A DNA stretch of 64,000 nucleotides, from assembly GCA_003024175.1 (NCBI GenBank), contig MDYQ01000043.1:79008-143007 (forward strand). Reading direction: 5' to 3'. Made by a program: the position numbers and the translations under genes. The notes beneath the pieces were generated by a model, which worked only from the letters and a program-made list of their open reading frames with translations, had not been told where the DNA came from and searched no databases. This document shows positions 6,571 to 32,526 of the stretch, one piece after another. The number at the start of each line of letters is the position of its first letter. The first letter of the stretch is position 1. Origin of the DNA: Planoprotostelium fungivorum. Lineage: Eukaryota > Evosea > Variosea > Cavosteliida > Cavosteliaceae.

Positions 6571-8772
6571 ATGAAGGGAAATCGTTTGGATCTGCCATCA
6601 GAAGCTAGATCGATGGAACAGTTTCGCTTTGAGTCTCTGTTGTCTAAGAAGCCACGGGTGTTGTCCTTCGATCGAGTTGCGAAGATCAGTCAACGCAGAG
6701 ATGAAGCAGAAATCCATAAGAAGACGGAGACGTAAGAGTGCTATTGAAAAGTAGAAGCTGATCTGGGTTCAGATGGCCTTTGGAGGAGATAGATGTATTG
6801 CAGGAGGTGATCGAGAAACCTGCTAAAAATACGAAGAGAGTGACGATCATCACGCCCACCACGGAAAAGATGATGAACCACAAGGACATACAAACCATGT
6901 CTAGAAACCCACAATGGGATCACCTGATGAACCGCCTGGATTCCACGTTGGATGACATTCTTCCAACTGCTGAAGACAGTGAAGACGATGATGTGAGTGT
7001 CGACTTCAAATCGTGCTCGCACTCACCGCGCCAGAGTGAAGATCACTTGATGAGAGATCCACTCGAAGAGATCAGAAAAGATATCCCCAGTAGAGTCCAT
7101 CTCATTCGGGCCGTCAAAGCATTGACCGATGCAAAGACATTACAGTTCATCCGATCCGTCCAATCAGAATCCGACACCTTATCATCCATGAAGGTGATGA
7201 CCGGCTCGAGCGTCCCATCTAAAGACATCGACACAGATCAGACGTCACCAGCTGCTGCTCATCGGAAGAGACATCGAGGCCGTGTCCCTCGATCATCAGA
7301 TGGATGCATACCGAAAGATATTAGCTTGGAGACGCCTGCGCTTCCACGCATTCATGAGCCGCATTCGAAACAACACCATCGATCGAGGCGTACCCAAATA
7401 TGAAGGTAAGAGACAAACGAAGGGACTCGAGTTGAACGTTTCAGAATTTCATCGCAGCTGTTTCTTTCTTCTGTGGAGGAGAAGATTGCATCATCGGTTG
7501 ATGTTCCAAGAGTTTGGAGAGTTTATCGGTCGGTGGAGGATGAGAAAGGCCCTGTCTGCCTGGACTGCTTACACACGGCGGAGTCGTGTCAAGTACAAAG
7601 CGTTGGATATGTCAGAAGCACACAGCAACGAGACTCTATTGCGGAAGGTGACACCACCGTGAGTGCGGAGACGAGATTGAATCGATTCAGATGGTGAGGC
7701 AGTGGAGGAAGATCTGTCATGAGCATCGAAACAGAATGTGGAGAGGCGTGTACAGCAGAAAGAGATGTGATTTCTTATGCAAACGCGAGATCTTTCTAAA
7801 GTGGAAGATGATCGTGAGGGAGAGACACATGCTAACCCATCAGAGAGGGCTAGATCGAGAGGTGAATCTAGATCGTACTGCATCAAGAGTTCAATGGATG
7901 TACAGGATGTACGTGCCATACTGATGAAATGGCGTGGAGATTTCATGAAGAGAACGAGTGTCGTTTTCAAACACGAGAGTGACTGGTTGATGCAGATCGT
8001 ATCGAATCATCGCAATAGCACAGAGGGAGAGAATTCCGCTTTGAGCCGGTGGACAGATAAGAAGATGATGACCAGGTGAATAACTCGATTTCACTTCGAT
8101 TGGTTGATTGAATCACATCGTGATCGCATCGATTGACATCATCGAAGGTTCATCACGAAATGGAACCAACAACTTTCGTTGAGGTTAGGACATCGTATAT
8201 CCATCGAATTGTATAAAATCAGAATCCAGAAGAGGATGTTGAAACGATGGAACGTCGCTGTACATAACTTGAAGAACCTGTGAGTTCATCACCACACCAT
8301 CATCTCTCACCATCATCATCTCACCAAGATTCATCATCACCACACCATCATCATCTCTCATCATCGTCATCTGATCGGCTCGTCAGACGCAGAGCAGAAG
8401 AACATCATCGCTTCCAGCTCTTACGACATACATTCACATCTTGGTGTACATACAAACGCAAACTCTCATCCGACAGAAGAGAAATGGAGAGGGAGAGGCA
8501 GAGGAGGAAGTACCACGAATTAGAGAAGCGCTGCAACATCTTCCGATCGAAACTTGAATGTAAAACGATCGTTCGTCATTGGGAGCATTGGAAGGAGAGA
8601 TGTCAAGGTAAGCAACACGCTTCGACTCGTGTTAACAACTTCAGCTAAATTGATCTTATCTGCATCGGAGAATGCACTGTCGACCACGAGAGGTTCTCTC
8701 TACAGTCATCAGTATCGAATATTGAACGAGGCGTTCAGAGCTTGGAGGCGTTATGCATCGAGGAGACGTTAA
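6571..8772 (+). CDS. Sfi1-like Trp-rich repeat protein (candidate centrin-binding)
   Basis: Starts at MKGNRLDLPSEARSMEQ; the first intron (GTAAGAGTG...TTCAG) joins frames at about 6731/6772. After an acidic, Ser-rich N-terminal part the protein is a chain of basic helical repeats with regularly spaced Trp: KILAWRRLRFHAFM, FFLLWRRRLHHRL, FIGRWRMRKALSAWTAY, VRQWRKICHEHRNRMW, FLKWKMIV, FITKWNQQLSLRLG, MLKRWNVAVHNL, FTSWCTYKRK, IVRHWEHWKER and EAFRAWRRYASRRR at the C-terminus. This AFxxWR-type pattern is typical of Sfi1 repeats, long helices that bind centrin at spindle poles and basal bodies. Sequence identity is low, so the assignment rests on the repeat pattern. Its stop lies 9 bp from the stop of the convergent helicase gene. 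Confidence 0.68.
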
Positions 8773-14857: not shown

Positions 14858-17705
14858 ATGCAACGACTCCAGCGATTGGTGGCAACAGGGCTACCTAGAA
14901 CACCATGTTCAAGACCACCACTCATGTTCAACCACCTGCCTCGATTTACACCGACACCTATACGTGGCTTCAGATCCTCGTCTAGACTATTCAATGACTC
15001 GAAAGCCTTCGGTCAGTCTTTAGACAAAGTGATTGAGTTGACAGAGACGGGGAAACTCGATGAAGCCATGAAGTATTACGATAAATTGATCGACATGAGT
15101 CCAGGAGATGCATTCTCCTACCTTAACAGAGGTCTTCTGCACGAGGTGAAGTCTAAATGGGATGATCCATTAATGTTGATGCATCACCAGGTGTTTTCAC
15201 AGTGGAAAAGTGCCATAGACGATTACACGACAGCCATATCACTTGAACCAGATTCTGGTGCCATATATCTGAAGAGAGGCAATGTCCATTGTGAGATGAG
15301 GTGTGACACGTGATCTCATTTTCGACACCTTCTTAAGCCGAATCAGAAATTACAAAGAAGCACTCGCAGATTTCACGAAAGCCATATCTCTGGATTCCAA
15401 ATCAGTCGATGCATTCTTCAAACGTGCCAGCTGTTTCCTCCTGATGGGAAAATACAAAGAAGCTCTCGAGGATCTCGACAAGACGATCGAACTGAATCCT
15501 GGACACGCCAACGCTTACAACTTGAGATCTATCTGTCAACATGCATTGGGTGCAACCGACAAGGCCATCAGTGACATCAACAAGGTGATCCATTCTTTCT
15601 CCTCCTGCGATGAAACACACTCAATACAGACGATGATGATGATGACGGTGATGTTCGGCTGAACAAAGACAGGCGAGTGAGATGAAGCCAAATCAATTCA
15701 TCTCGTACAAGAGTCGAGCTCAGATGCACGAGACGAAGGGAAGATTAGAAGAGGCACTGCAAGATTGGACCAGTGCCATCAGCCTCGGTGATTGACTCTC
15801 ACTCATTTGATGCTGACATGCGACAGAACCGAAGAAAGCTGATCTGTATCTATCGCGTGGACTCTTGTTGAAGTCTTTACAGAGAAAAGAAGAGGTCTGT
15901 AGGATGACCATCTCACATCATCCCATCATCTACCATCAACATCACCGACACGTCCATCGTCGCTCATGCTGTGGCCTAGTGACTGACTTGGCGACAGGCC
16001 ATCAGAGACTTCGACAAGGCCATCGAGCTAGATCCATCGAACGCGGCTGATGCCGAGAATCAGAGGGCTGTGTGCTATAGAGACATCAAGATTCAAAAAT
16101 CAGACACAGAATTGCAACAACTTACTGAGGTACAATGCATCATTAATACCATCATCATCACATGATCATCATCACATAATCCGAGATGATAGAGACAAGC
16201 AATGTATTGACTATCTCCAGGCCATCGAGAAGAACAGACAAGATTCCACAGCTTATGTCAACCGAGGTATCGTCTATCAGTGGAGAGGAAAGAGGAGCGA
16301 GGCAATCGCAGACTACTCACAATCCATCCAAGTCAAACCCACACGCGAGGCACATTACAGAAGAGGCAACCTCCTCTACGAGATGGACCGTCTGGCTGAT
16401 GCAGAGAAGGATCTCACATCTGCCATCGAGCTCGATCCCAAACACTGGCAGTCTTATTATCTGCGAGCGAAAATTAGAGACAAATTGAAAGAGTACGAGG
16501 GGGCCGAACACGATTACACGATGGTGAAGATGATGATTATCAGATCAGATGATTGACGATGGACAGACGATCCACTCGGACTCTGAAAAGTATGAGAAGG
16601 CCGTAGCTTATAACGACAGAGGACTCATTCGACTGCTGAAAGGGAAGTTTAAAGAGGCAGTCGAAGACTTTACCGTCGCCACCAAGCTCCTGCCTCGCAG
16701 TGCAAACTCTTTTTTCAACCGAGGAAATGCGAGGAGGCAACAGAAGGAATATGAGGTGAGAGGAGGATGAGGTGGAAGGAGTTGATGGAAATGCAGGCGG
16801 CCATCAGTGATTTCAATCAGGCCATTACCATCGAACCGAAACATTGGGAGTCATACAAGGGAAGGGCTACATGTTACCAACTCTTGAAAGATGTGTGTAA
16901 ACATAATCATTTCCTTCCACAACATCTGATGTGATAATCAGACGGAGAAGGCTCTCAAGGATTGGGATCACGTGATACAGAACAAGCCCGACGCCGCCTC
17001 CCTCTTTGCCAGGGCCATGATCCTCTCCGAAATCGGAGGCACTTCCAATCTCGAGAGGGCCCTCGATGATTTCAACCGCTGCATCGGCCTCAAGCCCGAC
17101 TACGTCCAAGCCTACTCCAACCGAGGAGTCACCCACAACGCATTGGGAAAGACAGATGATGCCATCCGCGATCTCAACAAGGTGAAGCATTTTATTCCTA
17201 GAACTCGCATCTGTTTCCAACCACAATCGAAATTTTTTTCTCTCGCATTATCTTAGAAGGAAATTGAAGGAGAGGAGCATCTTTGCGCTTGGGGCAGTAC
17301 TTCTTCAGTGACGTGTAAACAGAGACGAAGTTATTGCTAATTGAAAACTACATCCAAGCCACGCGTATACCACTGGTATACGCAATTTTTGGAAAAAACT
17401 CCCCTCATAATTGAAAAGAGAAATAGAGACATGGAAACTGAATAGAATTTCAGGCCATCGAATTAGAACCGAAAGACCAGAGTCTGTATACGGCAAGGTC
17501 GATCTTGCACGAGTCCAAGGGAAATCTGAAGGGAGCCGTCGAGGACTTGACCAAGGCCATCGAGATGACACCCAACCGTCACGCCAAGTTATACTTCCAG
17601 AGAGGTTTCTTAAAGAAGCAGCTGGGAGACAACAAGGGCAGCAGTGCGGATTACCACCACGGACAAGAGATTCAAGCTCAGAAGAGATTCAAGAGGTACA
17701 TGTGA
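14858..17705 (+). CDS. Multi-TPR protein with mitochondrial-type presequence
   Basis: The N-terminus (MQRLQRLVATGLPRTPCSRP, then RGFRSSSRLFN) is Arg/Ser-rich and almost free of acidic residues, a typical mitochondrial targeting sequence. The rest is a near-continuous array of about 16 tetratricopeptide repeats, for example NYKEALADFTKAISLDS, KYKEALEDLDKTIELNPGHA and GNLKGAVEDLTKAIEMTPN. TPRs form a superhelical protein-binding scaffold; the partner cannot be read from sequence. Introns are short except one of 272 bp (17182-17453), which splits a repeat between DLNK and AIELEP and contains a U4 snRNA gene on the same strand. The protein ends QKRFKRYM. Cytosolic TPR proteins of this layout exist, so the mitochondrial location is inference. 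Confidence 0.85.
17279..17405 (+). ncRNA. U4 spliceosomal snRNA, nested in an intron of the TPR gene
   Basis: The diagnostic parts occur in order. The 5' end ATCTTTGCGC (17279-17288) is complementary to the conserved U6 segment GCGCAAGGAU (U4/U6 stem II). A 5' stem-loop closed by ACTTC/GAAGT carries purine-rich internal bulges. TTGCTAAT is complementary to U6 AUUAGCA (stem I), within the U4 signature ATTGCTAATTGAAAAC (17333-17348). A perfect 10-bp hairpin follows at 17363-17383, then an Sm site AATTTTTGGA (17384-17393). The length of about 125 nt fits U4. The RNA appears to end shortly after the Sm site, as in yeast, so the 3' end is approximate. It is transcribed in the same direction as its host intron. 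I saw no certain promoter element in the roughly 95 bp upstream. Confidence 0.9.
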
Positions 17706-27205: not shown

Positions 27206-27320
27206 GCATCTGTGGCCGAGTTGGTTATGGCGCTAGACTCAAGCGAAAGCTTACTGCCAAGTCATGGTAGAGATTTCTAGTGTGGGTAACCGCGCGTGGG
27301 TTCGAATCCCACCGGATGCA
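27206..27320 (+). tRNA. trnL-CAA: tRNA-Leu (CAA) with 31-nt intron
   Basis: Acceptor arms GCATCTG and CGGATGC pair (one U-G), the D arm is GCCGAGTTGGTTATGGC and the anticodon stem CTAGA/TCTAG. The anticodon loop is CTCAAG..T with anticodon CAA at 27240-27242. A 31-nt intron occupies 27244-27274, one base 3' of the anticodon as in other eukaryotic tRNA-Leu(CAA). A long variable arm and the T arm GTGGGTTCGAATCCCAC follow, with discriminator A at 27320. A T-run at 27324-27329 is a probable Pol III terminator. Confidence 0.95.
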
Positions 27321-31990: not shown

Positions 31991-32061
31991 GCGTCGATGG
32001 TCCAGTGGTAGAATTTCCGCCTGCCACGCGGGAGACCCGGGTTCGATTCCCGGTCGACGCA
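31991..32061 (+). tRNA. trnG-GCC: tRNA-Gly (GCC)
   Basis: 71-nt cloverleaf: acceptor GCGTCGA/TCGACGC, A box TGGTCCAGTGGTAG, anticodon arm CCGCCTGCCACGCGG with anticodon GCC, T arm CCGGGTTCGATTCCCGG and discriminator A. TTTT at 32065-32068 is a likely Pol III terminator. This is the left member of the inverted pair. Confidence 0.96.
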
Positions 32062-32455
32062 CGGTTTTGCTGATTTGATCAAACACTTATACGATGTCTG
32101 AAGGGGAGGAGGATTCCTTACGATTTTTGTTACATATTGATTTCGGTCACCATATTCGTCGAGTGAGATCTCACATCACAAGACCATATATGTCGATCGA
32201 TTAATATTTCGATCACATCGATCATCGCACCGATCACGTCGATCATCACGTCATTGAGACTGAACCCATCATTACATGAATTCAAATCACCAACGCTACA
32301 TTGCACCCGACATACATCTCAAAAGAATTATCTCCAAAAAACTCATCTGATGACGCTGGACGATTGAGTCGAAACGGCTGACAGCCGGATAAAGAGTTCC
32401 CGTTTGTGATCATGCGATAATCGAGCATGGCTTCTCGGATGGATGAGCAAAACCG

Positions 32456-32526
32456 TGCGTCGACCGGGAATCGAACCCGGGTCTCCCGCGTGGCAGGCGG
32501 AAATTCTACCACTGGACCATCGACGC
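32456..32526 (-). tRNA. trnG-GCC: tRNA-Gly (GCC), second copy
   Basis: Identical to the plus-strand copy at 31991-32061 over all 71 nt, in opposite orientation. The same TTTT stretch follows its 3' end (minus strand). The two genes converge towards the spacer. Confidence 0.96.

Follow-up and report, generated by a model that had tools for sequence, protein, structure and literature searches.

A U4 spliceosomal RNA gene with snRNA promoter-type and 3' signals nested in the sense orientation in an intron of an amoebozoan TPR protein gene

The window analysed here, a stretch of DNA of 64,000 nucleotides, belongs to contig C375 (143007 bases) of an assembly of 36.86 Mb in 471 contigs. It contains a TPR gene (14858..17705, +) for which we built by hand a chain of 11 exons joined across GT-AG introns. 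The reading frame is unbroken along all 11 modelled exons and yields a product of 672 aa that matches Pfam TPR families, the best being TPR_1 (E 1.4e-100), and that is 95% identical to the deposited protein P0001. The record of P0001 names Planoprotostelium fungivorum, an amoebozoan of the class Variosea. This label is disputed, a 2023 survey stating that the NCBI entry under that name is really Protostelium aurantium (PMC10639083).

Intron 10 of the host gene (17182..17453, +) is 272 nt long, lies in phase 0, has the borders GTGAAG...TTTCAG and encloses a U4 RNA, leaving 97 nt of intron on its 5' side and 50 nt on its 3' side. The remaining nine modelled introns measure 39-103 nt, which bears out an earlier note made from the letters of this DNA, where intron 10 had been called the only long intron of the gene; the coordinates given there coincide exactly with the boundaries in our exon chain. 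When 17182-17453 is removed one TPR unit is rejoined, with ...DDAIRDLNK running directly into AIELEPKD..., and the transcript-derived homologue P0020 is continuous across this junction, without an insertion. We infer that the U4-bearing intron is also removed in vivo.

The deposited protein P0001 has 31 additional residues exactly at the position of intron 10. These could be traced to 17257-17295 and 17325-17375, that is, mostly to translated U4 sequence, and they look like an artefact of gene prediction, the nested U4 gene thus explaining a spurious insertion within a deposited protein.

The RNA itself lies at 17279..17403 (+), its 5' end being placed by homology and its 3' end approximate. 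With the Rfam model RF00015 (cmscan), whose gathering score is 46, it obtains 88.9 bits (E 1.6e-18), and the alignment spans model positions 1-138 of 138. The covariance check of the intron that the earlier note had proposed is therefore significant, and its claim of a complete U4 in an intron on the strand of the TPR gene holds over the full length of the model. Rfam assigns 17279-17403 to U4; the U4atac model, RF00618, found no match at E 0.001 or better in the whole genome, this locus included, and its control matched nowhere either.

The strand of U4/U6 stem II (17279..17288, +) pairs at 10/10 positions, one of them a G-U, with the U6 of the same genome (L004), in agreement with the complementarity to U6 that had been noticed at the 5' end, and the stem I strand TTGCTAATT (17334..17342, +) pairs with this U6 at 8/9. 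Both stems appear in the co-fold of U4 and U6. A perfect 9-bp hairpin, GCGTATACC-ACT-GGTATACGC (17363..17383, +), recognised in the sequence and in the minimum-free-energy fold, is followed by the Sm-type site AATTTTTGG (17384..17392, +), recognised in the sequence and in the covariance-model alignment; the earlier note had read both correctly. By its sequence 17279-17403 is a full-length U4 snRNA, and we predict that it is expressed, capped and assembled into a U4/U6 snRNP. The full U6 that served for the pairing (95.1 bits) is itself followed, after 3 nt, by a divergent U6-like sequence of 63 bits (L005), the two occupying C74:56400-56602.

The spliceosomal RNA genes collected from the assembly for comparison with U4 were those of U6 (two above the cut-off and one below), U2 (14 and one below), U5 (six), U1 (four above the cut-off and two just below), U12 (one) and U6atac (one). 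The divergent second U6-like copy L005 and the fragment L006 were excluded from the counts of elements, and the U2 fragment L021 was used for the upstream element and excluded for the 3' element. The start of the U2 genes was placed by hand at ATCTTCTCGG because the start given by the covariance model is wrong in the U2 genes that bear introns.

A match of at least seven bases to the nine of ACCCAYAAT begins between -59 and -62 in 28/28 of the non-U4 Pol II snRNA loci (six of U1, 15 of U2 including one fragment, six of U5 and one of U12). Its form is CCCAYAAT in 26 of these loci and ACCAYAAT in two, the overall consensus at the snRNA loci being [CA]CCAYAAT, and the genes of Pol III type share it, with U6 having it at -65 and U6atac at about -63. 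The intronic U4 is preceded by such a DUSE/PSE-like element, AACCACAAT (17219..17227, +), which begins at -60 relative to the 5' end of the RNA and is of the ACCAYAAT form, as is that of the U1 gene L032.

When a matrix trained without U4 was run over the 200 nt 5' of the intronic U4, its top site was this element at -60, with 10.45 bits. Such a score or a higher one occurs at six of 127968 window positions, the element itself counted, and the chance of finding it within the five positions from -58 to -62 is about 2 in 10,000. Of the 26 unique training sites, which span 10.3-20.3 bits, 25 score higher than this element, and a further match, at -148 inside a host exon, reaches 9.93 bits. The upstream sequence by itself is therefore unspecific, and it is the position that carries the argument.

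Elsewhere in the window CCCAYAAT occurs at 6908, 28848 and 57969 (+; positions within a base), and these sites outscore the element of the intronic U4. No known RNA family was found behind any of the three, and they may be chance matches or promoters of unknown ncRNAs. The window also holds two identical tRNA-Gly(gcc) genes, inverted and facing each other (31991-32062 and 32455-32526), and at 27206-27320 a tRNA of 115 nt according to Rfam, absent from the ARAGORN list obtained with default settings, which probably contains an intron.

Behind the RNA lies a 3' element, ATAATTGAAAAGAG (17407..17420, +), with the word AAAAGA 10 nt past the U4. By a plain word count AAAAGA stands 8-12 nt past the RNA end in 22 of 27 non-U4 loci (U2 13/14, U5 4/6, U1 5/6, U12 0/1) and is missing in the other five, and it is found behind two of the three U4 genes, the intronic one among them. 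The chance of meeting it in any 24-nt stretch of the window is 0.0076. The word count was used in place of a consensus scan, which misaligned L028 and L033; the score of the intronic site with the 3' matrix, 13.0 bits, reached at seven of 127966 window positions with the site itself counted, comes from a noisy matrix whose training scores extend down to 0.4.

From the upstream element through the 3' element the unit forms a cassette of 202 nt that lies wholly within intron 10. Without it the intron would measure 70 nt, which is ordinary beside the 39-103 nt of the other host introns. The normal size of this remainder suggests, short of proof, that a pre-existing short intron took up a compact snRNA cassette.

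The earlier note had also proposed a look for further U4 copies, and the assembly proved to have at least three U4 genes, on C90, on C372 and in the TPR intron. The U4 at C90:66632-66756 is identical to the intronic one over all 125 nt and carries both signals, with the upstream element ACCCATAAT at -60 scoring 13.37 bits against the 10.45 bits of the intronic element. A codon-usage detector found no coding signal within 500 nt of this copy, the nearest being 542 and 783 nt away. The U4 of C372 is 87% identical to the intronic one over 116 bases and lies about 200 nt downstream of an open frame on the same strand, with a coding signal at 225 nt; judged by its sequence, this frame looks like that of a CCCH zinc-finger protein. 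The element of the C372 gene, at -58, is degenerate (4.29 bits, a score equalled or exceeded at 136 of 127968 window positions) and no AAAAGA was found behind its RNA, so that it may be a case of a U4 copy persisting with weak signals.

The flanks of the intronic and C90 genes show no similarity above that of shuffled sequences (78 and 125 of 200 shuffles were as good), and the stretch of 24 nt that precedes the intronic U4 is similar to its counterpart at the C372 gene (0/200 shuffles as good). Identical U4 bodies between dissimilar flanks would be accounted for if gene conversion had acted on the RNA body, or if the gene had been duplicated and its flanks had since decayed.

Among the U2 genes, eight of the 14 full ones (L012-L017, L019 and L020) and the fragment L021 contain an intron-like insert of 65-69 nt, with GT-AG borders in eight cases and GC-AG in one, placed between ..AUCAAG and UGUAGUAUC, directly before the branch-point-recognition sequence. 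All of these insert-bearing genes have the upstream element and the eight full ones also AAAAGA; the other six full U2 genes are intronless. If the inserts are spliced, the spliceosome would be needed for making its own U2. Introns in U2 are known in Rhodotorula. An mRNA-type intron is contained in the U6 of fission yeast (PMC10484740).

We also looked at how often snRNA genes of this genome lie between coding segments. In a scan of 31 snRNA loci with the codon-usage detector, from which U6atac was excluded, same-strand coding signal was found within 150 nt on both sides of two, the intronic U4 (92 and 48 nt away) and a U1 gene on C82 (80 and 5 nt away). The detector recovered segments in eight of the 11 host exons, a sensitivity that is overstated because the training set included the host gene, and short exons near further snRNA genes may escape it. 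The C82 gene is the top-scoring U1 of the genome and lies within a modelled sense intron of 309 nt (L045:4827-5135), and the protein of its host gene aligns with UNC-45 structures across the junction, at best with E 1.4e-30. This U1 has its upstream element at -60 and AAAAGA 10 nt behind it. On these matches the second nested spliceosomal RNA gene is a U1 in an UNC-45-like gene. Two loci of intronic appearance among 31 may reflect nothing but chance landing.

We consider it very probable that the TPR intron, otherwise ordinary, harbours an autonomous U4 gene nested in the sense orientation. The letters of the DNA establish the identity of the RNA, the intron, and the presence, the position and the sharing of both signals. 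From these we infer the polymerase, the start site, the 3' processing and the expression of the intronic U4. A SNAPc-like promoter complex would bind the DUSE/PSE element at -60, RNA polymerase II would initiate at 17279 and the 3' element would cause the 3' end to be formed past 17403. The U4 would then be capped, loaded with an Sm ring at its Sm-type site and paired with U6. Transcripts of the host would traverse the U4 unit, which would be removed from them together with the intron. The 3'-end signals of vertebrate snRNA genes mainly affect polymerases that have initiated at snRNA promoters, and with signals so selective the polymerase of the host could read through.

The U4 might instead be a silent copy that landed in the TPR intron and is expressed little or not at all, the C90 gene supplying the U4 of the cell. 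Two loci do encode the same RNA, the active one is not distinguishable by sequence, and the upstream element is the weaker of the two here. Yet the 125-nt body is unchanged relative to C90 in spite of the dissimilar flanks, and the upstream and 3' control elements are both in place, and we hold silence to be improbable. To much the same degree we doubt that the nesting is itself functional, with host transcription and the internal promoter of U4 (and likewise that of the U1 in UNC-45) interfering with or feeding each other, and with U4 arising both from its promoter and from the excised intron, or its transcription tuning the removal of the intron. If true, it would amount to a small feedback loop linking the supply of an snRNA to a host gene.

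Somewhat less credible still is that the U4 is made by the host and, like many snoRNAs, matures from its intron once this has been excised, its supply then tracking transcription and splicing of the TPR gene. The sense orientation and the flanking 97 nt (5') and 50 nt (3') of intron would suit such processing, and the human U4atac in an intron of CLASP1 is said to need transcription and splicing of its host (PMC10228655). Against it, a promoter-type element is not lacking: one occupies, within the intron, the place typical of the snRNA genes, and together with the 3' element, also at its correct offset, it would be superfluous for a processed RNA. The dependence of U4 on the TPR host is also unlikely, as far as sequence can tell, because the identical C90 gene has like signals, and nowhere within 500 nt of it was coding signal detected. 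The earlier note was right to ask whether U4 is made from its own promoter or by host processing, and the comparison favours the promoter, both signals lying at their snRNA offsets within the intron. The coupling of U4 supply to host splicing that it had raised finds no support, the identical gene with both signals and the 87% copy lying outside any detectable intron, and the opposition of an intronic location to an own promoter is false here, as the intronic U4 keeps promoter-type signals. The insertion in P0001 would divide the region into a number of short introns and make translated exons of U4 sequence; this reading can practically be dismissed, for the inserted residues are mostly U4 sequence (17257-17295 and 17325-17375), split a TPR unit and are lacking in the transcript-derived P0020.

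The autonomous, sense-nested U4 gene that we favour can be set beside three known systems; a search of part of the literature turned up no earlier description, for this organism, of U4 or U1 genes nested in others. Where intronic snoRNAs and scaRNAs are released by processing, a promoter of their own is unnecessary. The U4 described here shares with intron-encoded snoRNAs and scaRNAs (PMC4053861) its place within an intron of a protein gene, and it differs from those processed RNAs in having snRNA promoter-type and 3' elements.

The precedent for nesting is the human U4atac gene, RNU4ATAC, embedded in an intron of CLASP1 (PMC10228655, PMC13400782), where the gene for a U4-type spliceosomal RNA likewise resides in the intron of a protein-coding gene. 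The present case differs from what these sources describe in that the RNA is the U4 of the major spliceosome, the organism is an amoeba and the intron is short and nearly filled by the cassette. The amoeba U4 is on the strand of its host. We have here a core-spliceosome snRNA in a sense intron whose signals are recognisable through about 30 sister genes of the same genome, and its intronic location need not imply dependence on the host, the opposite of what a review infers for human U4atac (PMC10228655).

In dictyostelids the DUSE, [AT]CCCA[AT]AA, lies about 60-63 nt upstream of ncRNA genes, and it is described for all spliceosomal RNA genes of D. purpureum (PMC3188802, PMC7919456). The genes of the present genome resemble them in having a very similar element, about 60-63 nt upstream, that spliceosomal RNA genes of Pol II and Pol III type both possess, and differ in that the amoeba is a variosean, the element reads [CA]CCA[CT]AAT and one U4 and one U1 are found in introns. 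The authors of one of these studies did not expect the sequence of DUSE or its distance to be conserved beyond Dictyostelia (PMC7919456). With this variosean genome, the occurrence of DUSE-like elements set at a constant distance from the gene extends beyond the dictyostelids.
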